DNA from: a virus
Reading direction: 5' to 3' (one strand)
Length of the DNA: 24,001 nucleotides
Virus record (IMG/VR): IMGVR_UViG_3300038441_001018
Span: 1 to 24,001 of that record
Position 1 is the first letter of the stretch; the number at the start of each line of letters is the position of its first letter. The notes under the pieces are model-generated. The model searched no databases and had not been told where the DNA came from. It saw only the letters and a list, made by a program, of their open reading frames with translations. The position numbers and the translations under genes are program-made. Shown in pieces: positions 1-13,670 of this stretch.

Positions 1-640
1 CTTGAGGGGCGGCTTGAGGGGCGGGCTTCGGAGACTCTCCGGGGCTGTTCTCTCGTGCGTCGGGCTCGTCCAGGGCGCGCAGGTCGTCCAGCATCGACGT
101 GGATCCGGGAGCGGCCTCGTCGGGGCTCTCCGGGCCATTCTCGCTGGCCTTCAGTTCGCGGATATTGTCGCGGGTCAGGCTCTCGCCCTGTTCGATGCGC
201 TCACCGACTGCAGTCAGCACGCTGTCGGGCGCGCTCAGCAGTTCCTTGAGGTGGGAGAGTGGCAGCTTCGAGACCATGTCCTGGGTGATGCGGCCGTCGC
301 CGACTTGCTTGGCGAGGTTCATCAGTTTGTTGGCAGTGGTTTTGTTGGTGATCGGCGTGTTGGCTGCTCGCCACTGGCCGAACTGCAGGTCGCCGGGGAT
401 CAGCAGGCGTGCCTCGTTCAGCAGGCGGCCGATGCCGATCTGCATCCGGACGTGGTCACGCACGCCCTTTTCGAAAATATCGCTAAGTTCGGTGGAGATC
501 TTGCCCAGGGCGGCGATGCCTGCGGCGTCCACCCCGTGGTTCCACTTCGAGCCGTCTTGGGTGCTGTTCAGCGGGGCCATGCTGCCTGCGGGGGCTGGCG
601 AGTTGCCCAGCTCTGTTGCGTATCCGTCTTTGTAGCTCAC
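1..640 (-). CDS. DUF3102-like phage protein (3' end beyond window)
   Basis: The reading frame starts at GTG 638-640 and is still open at base 1, so the C-terminus is missing; 213 residues are visible. An AGGAG sits about 8 bases before the GTG. Residues 50-110 contain the pattern IGIGRLLNEARLLIPG followed by FGQWRAAN and a helix with TTANKLMNLAK. This resembles the DUF3102-type module (an 'I G..L..A K..' helix, then 'F..W' and a helix-turn-helix-like segment) found in phage and plasmid proteins. A proline- and acid-rich tail follows. The family has no settled function; a DNA-binding or regulatory role is only inference. The gene appears to be preceded by its own weak promoter (684-712) and a small hairpin (661-675). 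The longer minus-strand frame starting at 683 is a different frame and a shadow. Confidence 0.8.
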   Translation of the reverse strand, partial: MSYKDGYATELGNSPAPAGSMAPLNSTQDGSKWNHGVDAAGIAALGKISTELSDIFEKGVRDHVRMQIGIGRLLNEARLLIPGDLQFGQWRAANTPITNKTTANKLMNLAKQVGDGRITQDMVSKLPLSHLKELLSAPDSVLTAVGERIEQGESLTRDNIRELKASENGPESPDEAAPGSTSMLDDLRALDEPDARENSPGESPKPAPQAAPQ

Positions 641-2788: not shown

Positions 2789-3371
2789 GTGAGTTCTCCT
2801 CTAGGGTGACTAGTCGTTCCAACTCAGCCAAGGCCAAAGCGATGCCCTTGGTTAGATCTTTGATACGGGCAGCTCGCGGGTTATCACCCTTCTCGGCGGG
2901 CTTGAACGAGGCAGCGGTCCAAGGCCAGAAAGACAAGCCGCCGTGGGGCAAGATATACGCAACCGCACCACGCGCCAACTCTTCGTCGCGGTACTGCATA
3001 TCCAACGGCTGGATGTGGCGGTGTTTCTCGATCTGCTCGCGGCGTTCATTGACGACCATCATCAGTGGGCGACCCAGGGAGCACACGCGCACGAGATCAA
3101 AATCAGACAGCGAGTGATCGCCGACGATGACTCGGGGGTCGTGCGGCGAACGTCGTCTTGGCGGTGCTTTGGGCGCTGGTGGGCGGGGCAGCTCGATCCC
3201 CGCTGCTTTCAGCTGCTCAAGCGTAGGGTTGACGTTCAGTGGCAAGTTCAGGTCCTTGCGTAGCTGCTCGATTTTCTTGCTGGTTTCGGTAGGCATCGGT
3301 TGATATCCCTTCGGCGGTTTGACTGACGGCATCGGGAGGAAGTTAAACCACGGGCGCAGGAACATACTCAT
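2781..3371 (-). CDS. Conserved phage protein of the RREQ...WPW...FKP type, 196 aa
   Basis: The C-terminal 105 residues carry a pattern common in phage hypothetical proteins: an ERREQIEKH helix, then Y-DEELARGAVAYILP, then WPW and FKP, and a last helix (KDLTKGIALALAELERL). The family has no established function. Residues 30-80 form a proline-rich, basic linker (ELPRPPAPKAPPRRR). The start is uncertain: ATG 3369-3371 and ATG 3363-3365 both have AAGG 6 bases upstream, and ATG 3294-3296 has AAGGGA at 9. The first choice overlaps the HNH gene by 29 bases. Confidence 0.8.
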   Translation of the reverse strand: MSMFLRPWFNFLPMPSVKPPKGYQPMPTETSKKIEQLRKDLNLPLNVNPTLEQLKAAGIELPRPPAPKAPPRRRSPHDPRVIVGDHSLSDFDLVRVCSLGRPLMMVVNERREQIEKHRHIQPLDMQYRDEELARGAVAYILPHGGLSFWPWTAASFKPAEKGDNPRAARIKDLTKGIALALAELERLVTLEENSRE

Positions 3372-3825
3372 CCTTGACCTTGAACAGCACGGCCTCGCCG
3401 CGATGAGTGTTGGTCCGGCTATCGACCGGGTCGAGGTGGTGCGGGTTACAGCAAAGCCGGTTGCGGCAGAGATGATCGAGCAGGATCTCGCGTGGAACTT
3501 CGACTGCCGTGATCAAAACATAGATCAGGCGATGTGCAACCGGCTCCTTGCCCTCCCAGCGCAGGCGCCCGTACCCGTTGCGGTTTTGACGGCCAGCCCA
3601 CTGCCAGCACTTTGGGTGCTCGCGTCCGTACTTTTCGAGGTACGCAGCCGGGGCCTGGGTGAACATCAACTGATCGGCGATCTTGTCGGGCAGCGTGGCG
3701 ATTTTCTGCATCGAGCGCTCTGGGCAGCACGATAGGCGGCCGTCCTGGCGCAGGGACGCCAACTGGCGGGCCGGGTCGATGGTGGTAGAGCCGCAGCCCT
3801 GGCACTTGAATATTTCGCGGTTCAC
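3343..3825 (-). CDS. HNH endonuclease with N-terminal zinc ribbon
   Basis: A 160-residue protein that starts with GTG 3823-3825, overlapping the TGA of the preceding small gene (GTGA). Residues 8-34 have CQGC and CC pairs, likely a zinc ribbon. Residues 73-140 carry the homing-endonuclease-like HNH fold: C73-W, GYGRLRW, AHRLIY (H98), the DHLC motif (D117, H118, C120), CCNPHHL (C125, C126, N127, H130) and a final RTNTHRG. It would nick or cleave DNA. Because it stands alone between two unrelated small genes, it may be a free-standing homing enzyme or may have a role in host DNA breakdown; it is far from the terminase genes, so a packaging partner role is less likely. Confidence 0.88.
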   Translation of the reverse strand: MNREIFKCQGCGSTTIDPARQLASLRQDGRLSCCPERSMQKIATLPDKIADQLMFTQAPAAYLEKYGREHPKCWQWAGRQNRNGYGRLRWEGKEPVAHRLIYVLITAVEVPREILLDHLCRNRLCCNPHHLDPVDSRTNTHRGEAVLFKVKDEYVPAPVV

Positions 3826-3938
3826 AGGATATTGCCCTCGAACTGGATGATGATGCCTAGCGCAATGCCCAGAGCGATACCTACTACGAATGTCCCGAGC
3901 GTCATGACTGCATACAACGTTGATCGTTTGACTATCAC
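3822..3938 (-). CDS. Small single-pass membrane protein, 38 aa
   Basis: This frame is short. It starts with GTG 3936-3938, overlapping the stop of the upstream gene as GTGA, and ends with TGA 3822-3824, overlapping the GTG of the HNH gene the same way. Residues 1-6 are basic (VIVKRS). Residues 8-31 form one hydrophobic helix rich in Val, Ile, Gly and Ala with two glycine-spaced repeats (GIALGIALGIII), typical of a single membrane span that may oligomerise through small-residue packing. The tail QFEGNIL is short. Overlaps on both sides are strong evidence that it is translated. The function is unknown. Confidence 0.75.
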   Translation of the reverse strand: MIVKRSTLYAVMTLGTFVVGIALGIALGIIIQFEGNIL

Positions 3939-4225
3939 CGGTCCTCGCCTCGCTCGTGGTGGTTCAGCAACTCGGCAGCACGCATGCGGTCAATCAGGTC
4001 TTGGACCTTCTCGATATGCAGGTAGAGGAACCCGACCAGGTTGTCGAGATTATCAGAGGCGCCTGGGCGATTGGCCGGTAACAGCGGCTTGACCGCGTCG
4101 CGGATCGCTTTGCGGCGGTTCAGCCCCAATTGGTGGGCATCGGCCTCTGCCTGGGACGGGAAGGTCCGGCCATCAGTGGTCTGGAACATCGTAACAGTGG
4201 ACACGCCGTGGGATCTAGGAGTCAT
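3935..4225 (-). CDS. Hypothetical phage protein, 96 aa
   Basis: ATG start at 4223-4225, overlapping the lipoprotein gene by 11 bases. The motif MFQTTDGRTFPSQAEADAHQ at residues 13-32 is a familiar short element of phage proteins (a target-like 'F.T.DG..F.S..EA..H' segment), and the next ATG (M13) is a possible alternative start that would begin exactly at that element. The C-terminal half is helical, with a run of hydrophobic residues (LVGFLYLHIEKVQDLI) that looks amphipathic rather than transmembrane. No catalytic residues are recognised. Confidence 0.75.
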   Translation of the reverse strand: MTPRSHGVSTVTMFQTTDGRTFPSQAEADAHQLGLNRRKAIRDAVKPLLPANRPGASDNLDNLVGFLYLHIEKVQDLIDRMRAAELLNHHERGEDR

Positions 4226-4442
4226 GTTGGCATACCTTTGGTTTGATGATCTCGATGGTGAGGAAACCGTAACCGGGGCACTCGTACTGCTGGTAGGTCT
4301 TGTCGCGGTAGCGGATTTTCGAGTCAGGGCCGGTCATTACGACGCAACGGGTTTGGTCGCGGGGCGGCAGGGGTTGGGTGCCGGGGGCAGCACAGCCGAC
4401 CAGGACGGACGCTGAAACGGCCAGGATTGCTAAGCGGATCAT
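4215..4442 (-). CDS. Small outer-membrane-type lipoprotein, 75 aa
   Basis: It starts at ATG 4440-4442 with AGGAG 8-9 bases upstream and an ATGA overlap with the preceding gene. Residues 1-17 form a signal peptide ending in the lipobox LVGC (C17), so the mature protein would be a 59-residue lipoprotein. The residue after the Cys is Ala, not Asp, which favours sorting to the outer membrane. The mature part has a Pro-rich start (APGTQPLPPRDQ), then three further cysteines that could form disulfides in the periplasm. It is not nested in an Rz-like spanin gene, so a spanin role is unlikely. Phage lipoproteins of this size outside lysis cassettes include receptor-blocking exclusion proteins (Llp and Cor types); that role is inference. 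Confidence 0.82.
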   Translation of the reverse strand: MIRLAILAVSASVLVGCAAPGTQPLPPRDQTRCVVMTGPDSKIRYRDKTYQQYECPGYGFLTIEIIKPKVCQHDS

Positions 4443-5092
4443 GGGCGCAGCTCCTGGGCTTGGTTGACTTTTGGCCGGAAGGTCGATGACCACTCACGGC
4501 CAACCTTCTTGCGATGGGCCTTGGTTTTGGCGCAGCTGTCAACGGCACTGGGGCGGCGGTCGCCGAATAGGGCCGGAATGACGTCCTCACCCTGGCGCAG
4601 CCTGGTATTGAACGTCGAGTAGCTGATCGTAACGTACTCAGACCACAGGCGGAACAGCTCTAACGCAGTGCCGCGCACGCCGCACAGGACGTGATCACGC
4701 TGGTTGTCGGTCATGGTAGCCCGTCCCCGAGCCAACGCCTCTTTGACCTTGTCACTGACCGGCTTCCCTCGCAGGTTCTCATTGTAGCGACGGCGAGCCA
4801 GAGAACTGCCCGATGCCCACTCGATGTCCGGCATTGCGTCGGCCAGGAGGTTGAACCGGTAGTGGCTGATCTTCAGAGTTCTGCGGGCCTCGGTCTTGCT
4901 CTGGCCGTTGGCCGCGCACTGACGAATCAGGGTTTCGATGTCTTCGTGTTCCGAGCGAAGGCTGCGGGCCACGTGGTTGACCTTGCGTAGGGCGTCTACG
5001 AGGGGGTGGGTGGTCGGCAACTCTTCGTTTTCGAGTAACTCGGCAGCTCGCTCAAGATCGTTGATCAGGCGGGCCATGATCGCCTTGTCCAT
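4439..5092 (-). CDS. Putative DNA-binding protein with two helix-turn-helix segments, 217 aa
   Basis: ATG 5090-5092 shares a base with the TAA of the gene before it and has GGAG 8 bases upstream. Two HTH-like elements can be seen. Residues 56-92 (CAANGQSKTEARRTLKISHY, then MPDIEW) have the usual phage pattern of a Q-S/T-E-A helix followed by a recognition helix. Residues 139-172 (GVRGTALELFRLWSEYVTIS, then TFNTRLRQGE) match the 'S..ELA...GVS.STFN.RLR.G' type common in phage accessory proteins. A basic stretch links them (SSLARRRYNENLRGK) and a basic tail follows. It is a candidate regulator of this arm; the target is unknown. It lies second in the operon read from the promoter at 5345-5373. 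Confidence 0.72.
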   Translation of the reverse strand: MDKAIMARLINDLERAAELLENEELPTTHPLVDALRKVNHVARSLRSEHEDIETLIRQCAANGQSKTEARRTLKISHYRFNLLADAMPDIEWASGSSLARRRYNENLRGKPVSDKVKEALARGRATMTDNQRDHVLCGVRGTALELFRLWSEYVTISYSTFNTRLRQGEDVIPALFGDRRPSAVDSCAKTKAHRKKVGREWSSTFRPKVNQAQELRP

Positions 5093-10110: not shown

Positions 10111-10665
10111 TTAGACTTCGGCTTCGTCGTCAACCAGGTCTTTGCCAGCGGCCCAGGCCTGCAGTTGCTCCAGGGTGAAGTCCTCGCGGCGGTAGGCTGC
10201 GCGGATGCGGTTGCCCGCGTTCATGCGGCGGCTGCCTGGGTTCAGGTGCTGCCATTTCTCCCAGTGGTGGAACTCTGGCTCGCCGAACACCTTGTCGGCC
10301 AGGGCGCATGCCTCGCTCGGGCTCATGCCTCGCATTGCTTCGGCCACTGGGTCGCCGTTGTCCAGGCTGTGGTTGCCGTTGTAGCTGGTTGTCTTGGCGT
10401 AGGTCTGGCGGTACTTGCGCAGGGTTTCGGACATCTTGCCTTCCTCCTCTTCCTCCTCGCCATCGTCTTCCTCGCCCTGGACGTCTTCCTTGAACTGGGC
10501 TGCGGCTTCCAGCCATTCGGCCTCGGTCCAGTCGTTGATTTTTTCGACGCCCTCGACTTCTTCGGTGTTGCCGTCGAACTCGAATTCGAAGCCTTCCTCA
10601 CTGCGCACCAGGGTGACGCCCAGGGCAGCCAGTTTTTTGTTCAGGTGGTCGATGCGCAGTGCCAT
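10111..10665 (-). CDS. Two-part phage protein with acidic linker, 184 aa
   Basis: ATG 10663-10665 with AAGGAA 8 bases upstream; first gene behind a consensus promoter. Residues 1-62 form a small domain (RIDHLNKKLAALGVTLVR, then INDWTEAEWLEAAAQF). Residues 63-77 are almost all Asp, Glu and Gly (QGEEDDGEEEEEEGK). Residues 78-184, starting with a Met, carry a pattern I have seen in phage hypothetical proteins: ETLRKYRQTYAKT, NGDPVAEAMRGM, LNPGSRRMNAGNRIRAAYR. The protein therefore looks like two modules joined by an acidic linker. The C-terminal module, by its regular 'LNPG..RMNAGNR.R.A' motif, may bind nucleic acid, but this is not established. Confidence 0.8.
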   Translation of the reverse strand: MALRIDHLNKKLAALGVTLVRSEEGFEFEFDGNTEEVEGVEKINDWTEAEWLEAAAQFKEDVQGEEDDGEEEEEEGKMSETLRKYRQTYAKTTSYNGNHSLDNGDPVAEAMRGMSPSEACALADKVFGEPEFHHWEKWQHLNPGSRRMNAGNRIRAAYRREDFTLEQLQAWAAGKDLVDDEAEV

Positions 10666-10686: not shown

Positions 10687-10741
10687 CGGGGCGGCGTTGC
10701 CCCGATATGTTTATTATACCAAAGGGAGGGGGCCCTGTCAA
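10687..10741 (-). promoter_or_regulatory. Perfect-consensus sigma70 promoter P5 with hairpin-capped leader
   Basis: The minus strand reads TTGACA (10736-10741), 17 bases, TATAAT (10713-10718), the full consensus. The start near 10706 is followed at once by the stem CGGGGC-(6)-GCCCCG (10687-10704). Downstream of the -10 it shares AATAAACATAT with the promoters at 8736 and 8991. It should be among the strongest promoters here. Confidence 0.92.
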
Positions 10742-10753
10742 CCCCCTGCCATA

Positions 10754-11023
10754 CTACCGTTCGTCGGGTGTTTCGGGGTCGAGGGCGACCCGCAAGCGAG
10801 CGATGGCGAGGTCGTTGTTCTTGGCGTGTAGCGGGCTCACGACCTGGACCGCATGTTCCAGAGTCTCTTCGAAGTGGCAGCTGATGTAGGCCGCGCTGCT
10901 GCGGGTTGCTGGCTTGGTCTCCAGCACGAAGTCGACGGTAGCAGCGGCCAGGCGGTTAGCGACTTGCAGGGCGACGTCCATGGGCAGCTCTCGGACGAAT
11001 CGTTTGTGGGTGCGATGGATCAT
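10754..11023 (-). CDS. Hypothetical phage protein, 89 aa (first leftward gene)
   Basis: ATG 11021-11023 with GAGGAG 9 bases upstream; TAG at 10754-10756. It is the gene nearest to the control region on the left side and has its own promoter (11054-11082), so it should be the first to be made. The protein is basic at the N-terminus (MIHRTHKRFVRELPM) and then helical (DVALQVANRLAAATVDFVLE, with HFEETLEHAVQVVSPL). It could be a small regulator because of its position next to the operator array, but no clear helix-turn-helix is visible, so that is speculation. Confidence 0.78.
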   Translation of the reverse strand: MIHRTHKRFVRELPMDVALQVANRLAAATVDFVLETKPATRSSAAYISCHFEETLEHAVQVVSPLHAKNNDLAIARLRVALDPETPDER

Positions 11024-11053
11024 GGGAGTCGGCTCCTCTATTGACGAACCTCT

Positions 11054-11082
11054 AGTATAGCACGGTTTGGGCGCCTTTGCAA
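11054..11082 (-). promoter_or_regulatory. Sigma70 promoter P6 (leftmost-reading promoter of the hub)
   Basis: The minus strand reads TTGCAA (11077-11082), 17 bases, TATACT (11054-11059). The start would be near 11047. It faces away from the operator array; site 1 of the array lies 38 bp upstream of its -35. The leader holds only a 4-bp stem, GGAG-CCGA-CTCC, that includes the ribosome binding site. Confidence 0.82.
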
Positions 11083-11119
11083 GTACCGTTCGGCCTAGGG
11101 CGATCCACGATTACTGGGC

Positions 11120-11392
11120 GTCAGACGCTTGACGCGGCCTAATCCTATGAATCGGGCATGTAATGGGCTCGACGTCAGACGCTTGACAACACACCTGATT
11201 ACACCTCGATTTATGTCGTTACTACATGTCAAGCGCTTGACATACTACAATCATATGAATCAGCCATGTAATAGGCCAGGCGTCAGACGCTTGACATCGG
11301 TCTTGTTTATGTCCGGATTTATGCCGTTATTGTGCGTCAAGCGCTTGACACGGCCTAATTCATAAATCGCAGCGATGCGTCAAAAACTTGAC
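11120..11392. repeat. Array of six 14-bp dyads, 54-bp period (operator, iteron or packaging site)
   Basis: The dyads are GTCAGACGCTTGAC at 11120, 11174 and 11282, GTCAAGCGCTTGAC (a perfect palindrome) at 11228 and 11336, and GTCAAAAACTTGAC at 11379. The first five are spaced exactly 54 bp and the last 43 bp, so all fall close to the same face of the helix (about 5.1 and 4.1 turns). The DNA between them alternates: segments after sites 1, 3 and 5 share CCTAAT/ATGAATC-like blocks, while those after sites 2 and 4 share a block with CGATTTATG or GGATTTATG that looks like the reverse complement of the first kind. The last interval is shortened by 11 bp. The sixth dyad overlaps the -35 of the rightward promoter. 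No gene lies in 11024-11451. Confidence 0.85.
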
Positions 11393-11441
11393 ACCAAACC
11401 TCGGTCGTGGTACAATTTGCCTATGCCCGGACAAAACCGGG
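11388..11441 (+). promoter_or_regulatory. Rightward sigma70 promoter PR with hairpin-capped leader
   Basis: TTGACA (11388-11393), 17 bases, TACAAT (11411-11416). The -35 is the right half of dyad 6, so a protein bound there would touch RNA polymerase directly. The start near 11423 is followed by the stem CCCGG-(6)-CCGGG (11426-11441), which runs into the ribosome binding site of the first gene. No other plus-strand promoter is visible up to the right edge, so it may drive the whole packaging and structural operon. Confidence 0.85.
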
Positions 11442-11451
11442 GAGAACGAAG

Positions 11452-11712
11452 ATGAGAACGTACGAATATGACCCAAGGCTCTTTGAGGACTGCGACCCTC
11501 ACCGAATCCCGTTCGGGGAGCCCGGCTATGACCCGTTCCTCGATGCCGCGCTGCCAAAGCTCCGTGCTCGGGACCTCCTCGACCCTGCGAACCTCGCAGT
11601 GCGTCAAGCCATCCTCGATGGCAGACTAAGGAGATTCTACTATGGCCGACGCCTCGAACATCTACGGAATGACAGCCGCCGAGCAAAGCTCATTCTTAGC
11701 CGAACAGCGTGA
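11452..11712 (+). CDS. Hypothetical small protein ahead of terminase, 86 aa
   Basis: ATG 11452 follows GGGGAG by 8 bases. The first 60 residues look like a real protein: MRTYEYDPRLFEDCDPHRIP, a GYDPFLDAALPKLRARDLLD segment and NLAVRQAILDGRLRR. The frame then runs 71 bases into the small terminase gene before it meets TGA 11710-11712, so the last 23 residues (basic, RRLEHLRNDSRRAK) are dictated by an overlap with the start of that gene. Such a long overlap is unusual in this operon. No family is recognised. Confidence 0.7.
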   Translation: MRTYEYDPRLFEDCDPHRIPFGEPGYDPFLDAALPKLRARDLLDPANLAVRQAILDGRLRRFYYGRRLEHLRNDSRRAKLILSRTA

Positions 11713-12163
11713 GAACGGCTTCCAAGCACTGAGCCAGGGGCAGCGGGCCTTCGCCCTCGACTTTATCCAGTCGGGCAGCATCCCCCAGGCCTCTCAGGCA
11801 GCTGGCGTCAAGCCAGAAACCGGCCGCCGTTGGGTCCGCGACCCCCTGGTATCCGGGTTCATCCACTACCTGAACCAACAGAAAGAACACTACTCGCTGA
11901 TCGACGCCAGCTTTGTCGAGACCCAATACCTGAACCTCCTGGGCAAGTTGCTCGGCGAAGAGCAGGTCTCGATGGTCGACAAGGACGGCATGCAGATCGA
12001 GCGCAAGAAATTCGAAGGCGCCGCAGCCGTTGCCTGCCTCCGTGACCTGGCCAAGATTTCCGGCCACTACAAGGAAGATGGCAACACGATCAACGTCCAG
12101 GTGACTACGCTCACGGACGAACAAAAACGATTCTTGGATGAGAAGCTCAACAGTGCGTACTAA
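11642..12163 (+). CDS. terS: Terminase small subunit
   Basis: ATG 11642 follows AAGGAG by 9 bases; 173 residues, a normal length for the family. Residues 30-75 form the DNA-recognition part: ALSQGQRAFALDFIQSGSIP, then QASQAAGVKPETGRRWVRDP, a helix-turn-helix of the Terminase_2 kind in which the second helix reads the packaging site. Residues 78-115 are a helical oligomerisation region, and the end (TLTDEQKRFLDEKL) would contact the large subunit. The protein recognises the phage DNA and hands it to the motor. It is followed directly by the large subunit gene, whose start it overlaps by 26 bases. Confidence 0.85.
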   Translation: MADASNIYGMTAAEQSSFLAEQRENGFQALSQGQRAFALDFIQSGSIPQASQAAGVKPETGRRWVRDPLVSGFIHYLNQQKEHYSLIDASFVETQYLNLLGKLLGEEQVSMVDKDGMQIERKKFEGAAAVACLRDLAKISGHYKEDGNTINVQVTTLTDEQKRFLDEKLNSAY

Positions 12164-13670
12164 TCTCGCCCACAGTCAGATAGCAGAAGGGGTCGCGAAA
12201 GCCACCCCTCGTCCGTATCTGGCCAGCGAGATCACGCCTGAGCAGCTCCTCAACCACATCCGTGAGAAATGCGAGAATGACTTCTCGTTCTTCGTCCGGT
12301 ACTTCTTCAAGGCCCGCAAGGCGACCAAGTTCGTCTTCAACCGCCATCACCACGTGATCTGCCGCGACCTCATGAAGGTGTATGAGGGTCACCCAGACTA
12401 CGAGGGCTACATCTGCAACATGCCCCCGCGCTACGGCAAGACGGAAGTCATCGTCCTGATGTTCCCGCTGTGGTGCTATGTCAAGAACCAGCGTTGCGAG
12501 TTCATCCACCTGAGCTACGGTCTGCCCCTGGCCCTTGAGAACTCCGACGCGATCCGCACCGTCATGAAGTCGGCCGAGTTTACGCAGCTATGGCCCCACA
12601 TCAAGACCAAGGACACCAAGGACAGCAAGCACGCTTGGGCTACGGCCCAGGGCGGCACCTTCCTCGCGGCCCAGGCTGGCGGTTCGGTCACTGGTTTTGG
12701 TGCTGGCCGCCTCGACGAGTGGGATCCGGTCACTGATAAGTTCACTTTCAGCGGCTGCATCCTGATCGATGACCCGCTCAAGCCGGATGATGCCAAGCAC
12801 GACACCAAACGCAAGGCGGTCAACGAGCGCTGGCAGTCGACGATCAAGTCGCGCCGGAACAGCCCGAAGACCCCGGTCATCTGCGTCATGCAGCGCCTGT
12901 CCGAGGATGACTTTACGTCCGAGCTTCTGGCCGACACCGACATCAAGTGGAAGCACCGGGTCATGCCCGCCTTGATGAACGAGGATACCGCCAACGAGAC
13001 CGCCCTTTGGGAGGCCAAACATAACCTGTCCGCCCTCAGGAGTCTGGCCCTCACCAACCGCTATGTGTTCGACTCCCAGTATCAACAACGACCAACGCCG
13101 AAGGGCGGTGCAATGTTCGAGCACTGGGAGAAACTGCAGGTGGTCCAGGCCGCTCCTCGGATGCTCAAGATCCTACGCTATTGGGATAAGGCGGGCACCC
13201 AGGGCGCTGGCGCCTATACCGCTGGTGTCCTGATGGGCTGGGCAGAGGATGGCCTTTACTACATCCTGGATGTGGTCCGGGGTCAGTGGTCCTCTACCGT
13301 CCGTGAGATGCACATCCGCCAGACGGCTGAGATCGACGGGGTATACGTCCACGTCTGGATTGAGCAAGAGCCGGGGTCGGGCGGTAAAGAGTCCGCAGAA
13401 TCGACCATCGGCAAGACCCTAGCCGGGTTCACCTGCCGTGCCGAGCGCCCAACCGGTGACAAGGTGCTGCGTGCTGAACCGCTCGCCGTCCAGATCGATG
13501 CGGGCAACGTCCGGATGCTCAAGGGCGACTGGAACAAGGCGTTCCTGGACGAGATGAAGAAATTCCCGGCTTCGAAGTTCAAGGACCAGATTGACGCCGC
13601 CTCGGGCGCGTTCAACAAGCTGGCCGTACCATCCGCCATGGGCATCTTGATGCCAGGAGCTGGCCAATGA
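12138..13670 (+). CDS. terL: Terminase large subunit (packaging ATPase and nuclease)
   Basis: A 510-residue motor protein. The ATPase part has the Walker A element PPRYGKT (residues 96-102), Walker B CILIDDP (207-213; D211, D212) and a coupling motif CVMQRLSEDDF (249-259). The nuclease part has the acidic residues D350 (RYWDKAG), E409/E411 (WIEQEPG) and D483/D486 (FKDQIDA), in the RNase H-like order of gp17-type terminases. It pumps DNA into the prohead and makes the terminal cuts. I give ATG 12138 as start, although no good ribosome binding site precedes it; GTG 12153, with GAGAAG about 8 bases upstream, is an alternative five codons in. Confidence 0.95.
   Translation: MRSSTVRTNLAHSQIAEGVAKATPRPYLASEITPEQLLNHIREKCENDFSFFVRYFFKARKATKFVFNRHHHVICRDLMKVYEGHPDYEGYICNMPPRYGKTEVIVLMFPLWCYVKNQRCEFIHLSYGLPLALENSDAIRTVMKSAEFTQLWPHIKTKDTKDSKHAWATAQGGTFLAAQAGGSVTGFGAGRLDEWDPVTDKFTFSGCILIDDPLKPDDAKHDTKRKAVNERWQSTIKSRRNSPKTPVICVMQRLSEDDFTSELLADTDIKWKHRVMPALMNEDTANETALWEAKHNLSALRSLALTNRYVFDSQYQQRPTPKGGAMFEHWEKLQVVQAAPRMLKILRYWDKAGTQGAGAYTAGVLMGWAEDGLYYILDVVRGQWSSTVREMHIRQTAEIDGVYVHVWIEQEPGSGGKESAESTIGKTLAGFTCRAERPTGDKVLRAEPLAVQIDAGNVRMLKGDWNKAFLDEMKKFPASKFKDQIDAASGAFNKLAVPSAMGILMPGAGQ

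Follow-up and report, generated by a model that had tools for sequence, protein, structure and literature searches.

The only divergent gap of the window (the whole stretch of 24,001 nucleotides analysed here, from IMG/VR virus record IMGVR_UViG_3300038441_001018) carries a series of short dyads, the last of which runs into the -35 box of the promoter preceding the packaging and structural genes. This raises the question of how the late genes of such a phage are controlled, and which of the dyads matters for that control. On the basis of comparison with relatives, there is good support for the last dyad (dyad 6) being a conserved operator of the late promoter, and a protein probably docks there, where it would shut out host RNA polymerase and keep the virion genes silent early in infection. 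The features concerned are as follows.

10754-11023, minus strand: first gene of the leftward operon, 89 aa
11054-11082, minus strand: leftward promoter, TTGCAA-N17-TATACT, at the opposite end of the gap
11120-11133, no strand: dyad 1, GTCAGACGCTTGAC, putative expansion copy, closest to the leftward promoter
11174-11187, no strand: dyad 2, GTCAGACGCTTGAC, putative expansion copy
11228-11241, no strand: dyad 3, GTCAAGCGCTTGAC, putative expansion copy
11282-11295, no strand: dyad 4, GTCAGACGCTTGAC, putative expansion copy
11336-11349, no strand: dyad 5, GTCAAGCGCTTGAC, counterpart of the distal pair member in relatives (43 bp from the next dyad here, 32-34 bp there)
11379-11392, no strand: dyad 6, GTCAAAAACTTGAC, predicted core operator, its right arm being the first five bases of the -35 box
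11141-11350, no strand: tandem repeat of a 108-bp unit, the two copies having 76% identity over 102 aligned nt
11388-11416, plus strand: late promoter, TTGACA at 11388-11393, N17, TG at 11408-11409, TACAAT at 11411-11416
11426-11441, plus strand: hairpin in the 5'-UTR, CCCGG-ACAAAA-CCGGG, with a Shine-Dalgarno-like GGGGAG at its 3' arm
11452-11712, plus strand: ORF1, 86 aa, first late gene, conserved in all relatives
11642-12163, plus strand: small terminase subunit (terS), Terminase_2-like, below the Pfam cut-off
12138-13670, plus strand: large terminase subunit (terL)

All six dyads are exact matches to GTCA-N6-TGAC and lie inside the gap (11024-11451), with steps of 54, 54, 54, 54 and then 43 bp from one to the next. 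A first-order Markov model of the gap gave a mean of 0.007 such dyads by chance, with a maximum of 1 across 5000 trials. Each copy of the 108-bp unit includes one A-type and one B-type dyad, and the odd and even spacers of the array pair up mutually. The arms of dyads 1-5 are intact and the spacers of corresponding units are 47-57% alike; judged from these repeats, dyads 1-5 are mostly a lineage-specific tandem expansion of the 108-bp unit. No match was found when the region was compared with Rfam, or in near and distant DNA searches of known phages using the dyad region. A second element, CATRAATC or similar, was also observed to recur between the dyads (11134-11378) in alternating orientation.

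The late promoter agrees with the consensus at 11 of 12 bases, has a 17-base spacer and a TG preceding the -10 box, and no other near-consensus promoter pointing rightward stands in front of the late operon ORF1-terS-terL; it is reasonable to expect the late transcript to start near 11423. Dyad 6 ends in CTTGAC, and TTGAC is common to its right arm and the -35 box. The claim of the sequence-only reading that this dyad runs into the -35 box was therefore borne out, and TACAAT follows 17 bases after the complete hexamer TTGACA. A promoter census revealed that near-consensus promoters elsewhere were mostly leftward early ones, and a dyad was present at none of them. Several of these early promoters have CGACGARCGG just upstream of the -35 box (10766-10713 on the minus strand of the window, and in relatives). 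With regard to the leaders, the hairpin just past the late start is kept in relatives although its sequence changes, and a hairpin is also present in early leaders, for example at 10687-10704.

To place these features in a wider set of phages, viral contigs were searched with TerL and ORF1, which yielded G001 (50.4 kb), G002 (49.7 kb), the short contigs L060 and L078, and three phages that are farther off (G003, G004 and G005; TerL 48-49% identical). The late operon of G001 and G002 runs in one direction and the early operon in the opposite one, and the dyad gap is the divergent point of the genome. Other scans added little: a first scan of genome contigs with TerL gave no relative, the promoter-pattern scan of the collection returned G001 and G002 only, plus matches of unrelated appearance, and among the matches listed for the dyad-pair scan of the collection, those examined outside the lineage had no ORF1-terS homologues.

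The control region of all five relatives G001-G005 carries only two dyads before ORF1-terS-terL: one on the -35 box and, 32-34 bp upstream of it, a distal copy whose centre varies. Of the six phages, four (the window, G001, G002 and G003) have exactly the same sequence, GTCAAAAACTTGAC, for the copy on the -35 box, and G004 and G005 depart from it by one base (GTCAAAATCTTGAC). Across the window and G001-G003, 9 of 9 dyad positions outside the -35 box are invariant, compared with none of the 18 positions upstream and with 3 of 14 within the promoter spacer (3 of 32 for the flanks together); by this count, the site on the -35 box is conserved beyond the requirement of the promoter itself. Matches to GTCA-N5-TTGAC in G001 and in the contigs of G003-G005 were limited to the pair in the gap, which is also the only pair in G002, where further matches are scattered singles, one of them inside an open frame. 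In addition, the sixth -35 base is a G in G001 and G003-G005, which perfects or extends the symmetry of the dyad (GCGTCAA...TTGACGC in G001) and weakens the -35 box, as if operator quality outweighed promoter strength in these phages. In the near-identical G004 and G005, the distal dyads have their centres in opposite orientation, AGGC versus GCCT (GTCAAAGGCTTGAC versus GTCAAGCCTTTGAC; L082 3183 and L083 3183), and a symmetric dimer site would thus fit. It should be noted that dyad 6 had been regarded as the deviant copy of the array. Its centre is indeed unlike those of the other five and its 43-bp step is the only one of that length; the odd-one-out reading does not hold, since this copy is the most conserved across relatives, which suggests that dyad 6 is the conserved ancestral core and not a divergent sixth copy.

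L060 and L078 (TerL 74%) are closer relatives than G003-G005; they keep TTGACA-N17-TACAAT and have no dyad, the left dyad arm being replaced by TTTCTTCATRAAA in L060 (1954-1980) and L078 (near 3590-3612). The two group apart from the dyad carriers in the TerL tree (94/93). When the tree is rooted on outlying phages, an ancestral gain plus one replacement takes as many events as two separate gains; the former is favoured because the core sequence is identical in both dyad groups. The promoter layout is conserved among relatives both with and without the dyad, and the late promoter is probably independent of it. The presence of TTTCTTCATRAAA upstream of an unchanged promoter might reflect a swap of regulator specificity.

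These dyad-free relatives bear on the mode of action. It had been proposed that a protein bound at dyad 6 would either compete with RNA polymerase or touch it as an activator, and only competition remains as the best reading. Some phage activators do bind across a -35 box, as lambda CII does while touching sigma; the array lies upstream of the start, and the -10 box of G003-G005 is the weaker TAAACT, all of which would suit a protein that activates the late promoter by contacting RNA polymerase from the -35 region. However, a promoter so near to consensus, with TG before its -10 box, should have little need of such help, and its persistence without the dyad in L060 and L078 argues that the dyad is probably not an activator site on which the promoter depends. 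We therefore regard activation as unlikely.

Two further explanations would separate the dyads from transcription. The first is that they form a packaging site (pac or cosB-like) read by the small terminase. They do precede terS, repeats close to terS are a common form of terminase site, and G001 has a 127-base contig terminal repeat, with contig ends that split purZ. Nevertheless, a packaging site is very unlikely because TerS proteins 66-68% identical to that of the window occur in L060 and L078 without any dyad; nor does dyad presence go along with resemblance between the N-terminal halves of TerS, and the fusion of the core dyad to the -35 box would be left unexplained. The second, that the dyads are iterons of a replication origin, appears extremely improbable. 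The array is repeated, and the gap is more A+T-rich than the genome and marks the maximum of the cumulative GC skew, whereas gene direction also accounts for the skew there, the core consists of one dyad fixed on the -35 box, and relatives have two dyads or none. Such a role might, with low probability, apply to the distal array, but it would leave the core unexplained.

The reading that we prefer is that dyad 6 is a dimer-binding operator that would occlude the -35 box and repress the single late promoter until the regulator is lost, titrated or inactivated, and on the sequence comparisons we consider this fairly likely. Because the downstream arm of the dyad is the -35 box itself, a protein reading that arm would exclude sigma-70 region 4 from a promoter that its near-consensus boxes should otherwise make strong. 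The spacings of 32, 34, 43 and 54 bp are near whole helical turns, and 0.7% of random sets fit equally well when the pitch is left free within limits. Overlap with the -35 box, symmetry and near-whole-turn spacing together make a repressor with two or more cooperating dimers the best reading. We infer repression by a predicted dimer at dyad 6, and protein binding and timing likewise.

The switch might operate in the following way. A regulator on GTCAA-N4-TTGAC would cover the bases recognised by sigma-70 region 4, leaving host RNA polymerase unable to open the near-consensus promoter; the operon of ORF1, terminase and structural genes would stay off, while the early leftward near-consensus promoters, being free of dyads, would fire at once. 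Late expression would begin once replication had diluted the regulator, or once it was removed or inactivated. The dyad on the -35 box would be assisted by a second one located three to four turns upstream, and in the phage of the window this upstream part would have been enlarged to five copies by tandem duplication. The sequence-only reading had given the five distal copies a possible role in raising local concentration. This part was not upheld: five copies are particular to the phage of the window, and relatives manage with one at 32-34 bp, so that a large distal array appears unnecessary for the basic switch. Its further suggestion, that no phage RNA polymerase or sigma factor is needed, agrees with the results, as neither turned up among the part of the relatives' proteins examined. 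The copy that matters would be the dyad on the -35 box and not the distal array, which gives a concrete late-transcription switch for what are probably 2-aminoadenine-genome phages (see below), with the base pairs to alter named.

Which protein might read the dyads? Two candidates are encoded in the window.

2-640, minus strand: DUF3102-like protein, truncated at the contig end, candidate regulator
4439-5092, minus strand: phrog_3190-like protein, predicted helix-turn-helix at residues about 50-102, candidate regulator

Together with a host MarR protein, these make three tentative candidates with roughly equal chances, each of them doubtful when taken singly, and the rest of the probability falls to an unrecognised protein. 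The DUF3102-like protein, the candidate with the best conservation, is found in all dyad phages at 55-75% identity, with an almost invariant helical block, and its AlphaFold model is a helical domain (pLDDT about 80) for which a PDB search listed no match. The only other DUF3102-like relatives found were in Vibrio phages of the phiVC8 type; phiVC8 carries a homologue, yet its late promoter is without such a dyad, which counts against this candidate. The phrog_3190-like protein is 25-50% identical among dyad carriers. Its AlphaFold model contains the helix-turn-helix, and the weak best matches, below significance, were often DNA-binding domains of MarR/ArsR proteins; homologues in Pseudomonas phages (phi297) provided no lead.

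A host MarR becomes a candidate because the dyad pair also occurs at bacterial MarR/FMN-reductase loci. Paired GTCAAG(C/T)GCTTGAC and related sites precede FMN-reductase genes adjoining MarR (PF12802) genes in Lysobacterales, Actinobacteria (Janibacter) and others. Bacterial MarR/FMN-reductase loci with paired GTCAA-N4-TTGAC are at the following positions.

L272, 7741
L290, 7056
L313, 4220
L281, 1414
L292, 3561

In the Lysobacterales loci the first dyad is fused to the TTGAC(A/T) -35 box of the promoter, and dyads 3 and 5 of the window have exactly the sequence of the Lysobacterales site. The phages searched yielded no MarR gene: tblastn of phages with two bacterial MarR proteins gave nothing significant, and Pfam analysis of 47 early proteins of G001 and G002 had no MarR among the 25 families listed. 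This match raises the possibility of a borrowed host operator, in which a host MarR-type repressor would bind the dyads and the copied operator would tie late transcription to a host signal (quinone/redox). We consider this rather unlikely, since the strictly conserved AAAC centre of the dyad on the -35 box differs from the centre of the bacterial sites, such palindromes recur by chance (62 stretches in 257 Gb), and 2-aminoadenine DNA might disturb minor-groove contacts. The fuller version, in which 2-aminoadenine phages have fused a host MarR-type operator with the -35 box of their only late promoter and a host stress-sensing repressor times the virion genes, seems improbable.

The 2-aminoadenine context comes from the relatives (for background on such phages, see PMC12884076, PMC8342488 and PMC8515928). 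PurZ of G002 scored 342.9 bits (NCBIfam cut-off 300) and DpoZ of G001 scored 753 bits (cut-off 500); PurZ is also present in G001 and G005, DpoZ in G002, G004 and G005, and the relatives encode DatZ-like and DUF5664-type (PF18909) proteins as well. The PurZ, DpoZ and DatZ/MazZ-type genes are located as follows.

G002, 27931-29049 (L074:7931-9049)
G001, 2917-4842 (L070)
G001, 48127-49507 (L072)

As they encode PurZ and DpoZ, the relatives are probably 2-aminoadenine-genome phages, in which Z would replace adenine. The window does not span the Z genes, and its own phage would carry 2-aminoadenine by inference from these relatives. A protein encoded at 10111-10665 on the minus strand is acidic in its N-terminal half and strongly conserved in its C-terminal half; among known phages it matched mainly the PurZ-encoding phiVC8-type Vibrio phages, Alteromonas ZP6 and Stenotrophomonas BUCT555, and it is possibly Z-associated.

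The proposed device is of a known kind; to our knowledge, late control of the dyad-bearing, probably Z-genome phages has been undescribed so far, and literature searches on phage late control gave no match to a system with a dyad on the late promoter. The 2-aminoadenine podophages of the phiVC8 type and BUCT555 share the two-operon layout with a divergent gap and, as here, have one near-consensus sigma-70 late promoter upstream of ORF1/terS/terL. In contrast, their gaps have direct repeats of 27 or 20 bp and lack GTCAA dyads, and the dyad pair was absent from the phiVC8, BUCT555 and PSA28 genomes. The bacterial MarR operators at FMN-reductase loci have the same GTCAA-N4-TTGAC in pairs, whereas marR adjoins the site there and none was found in the phages. 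T7 Gp5.7 is a small phage DNA-binding protein that shuts host-RNA-polymerase early promoters on the phage genome (PMC5569994). Here, by comparison, the site is on the late promoter and highly sequence-specific.

Mycobacteriophage L5, a phage without its own polymerase, has repressor sites that lie in promoters and contain TGTCAAG, which is the -35 hexamer on the other strand. Its stoperators are asymmetric 13-mers bound by a monomer, with more than 20 across the genome (PMC9283540), whereas the dyads described here are symmetric and their pairs confined to one gap, apart from the scattered singles of G002. An asymmetric monomer site of the L5 type does not agree with the dyad symmetry or with the occurrence of both centre orientations in G004 and G005. 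With respect to lambda, the relatives' genes examined included none recognised as a CI-like repressor or an integrase. The lambda OL/OR operators, where a dimeric repressor sits over the -35 box, resemble the present arrangement in that several dyads lie both on a sigma-70 promoter and upstream of it, where binding would exclude RNA polymerase, and in a helical spacing that allows cooperation. They differ in that the target here is the late operon and that the -35 hexamer itself serves as the downstream arm of the core dyad.
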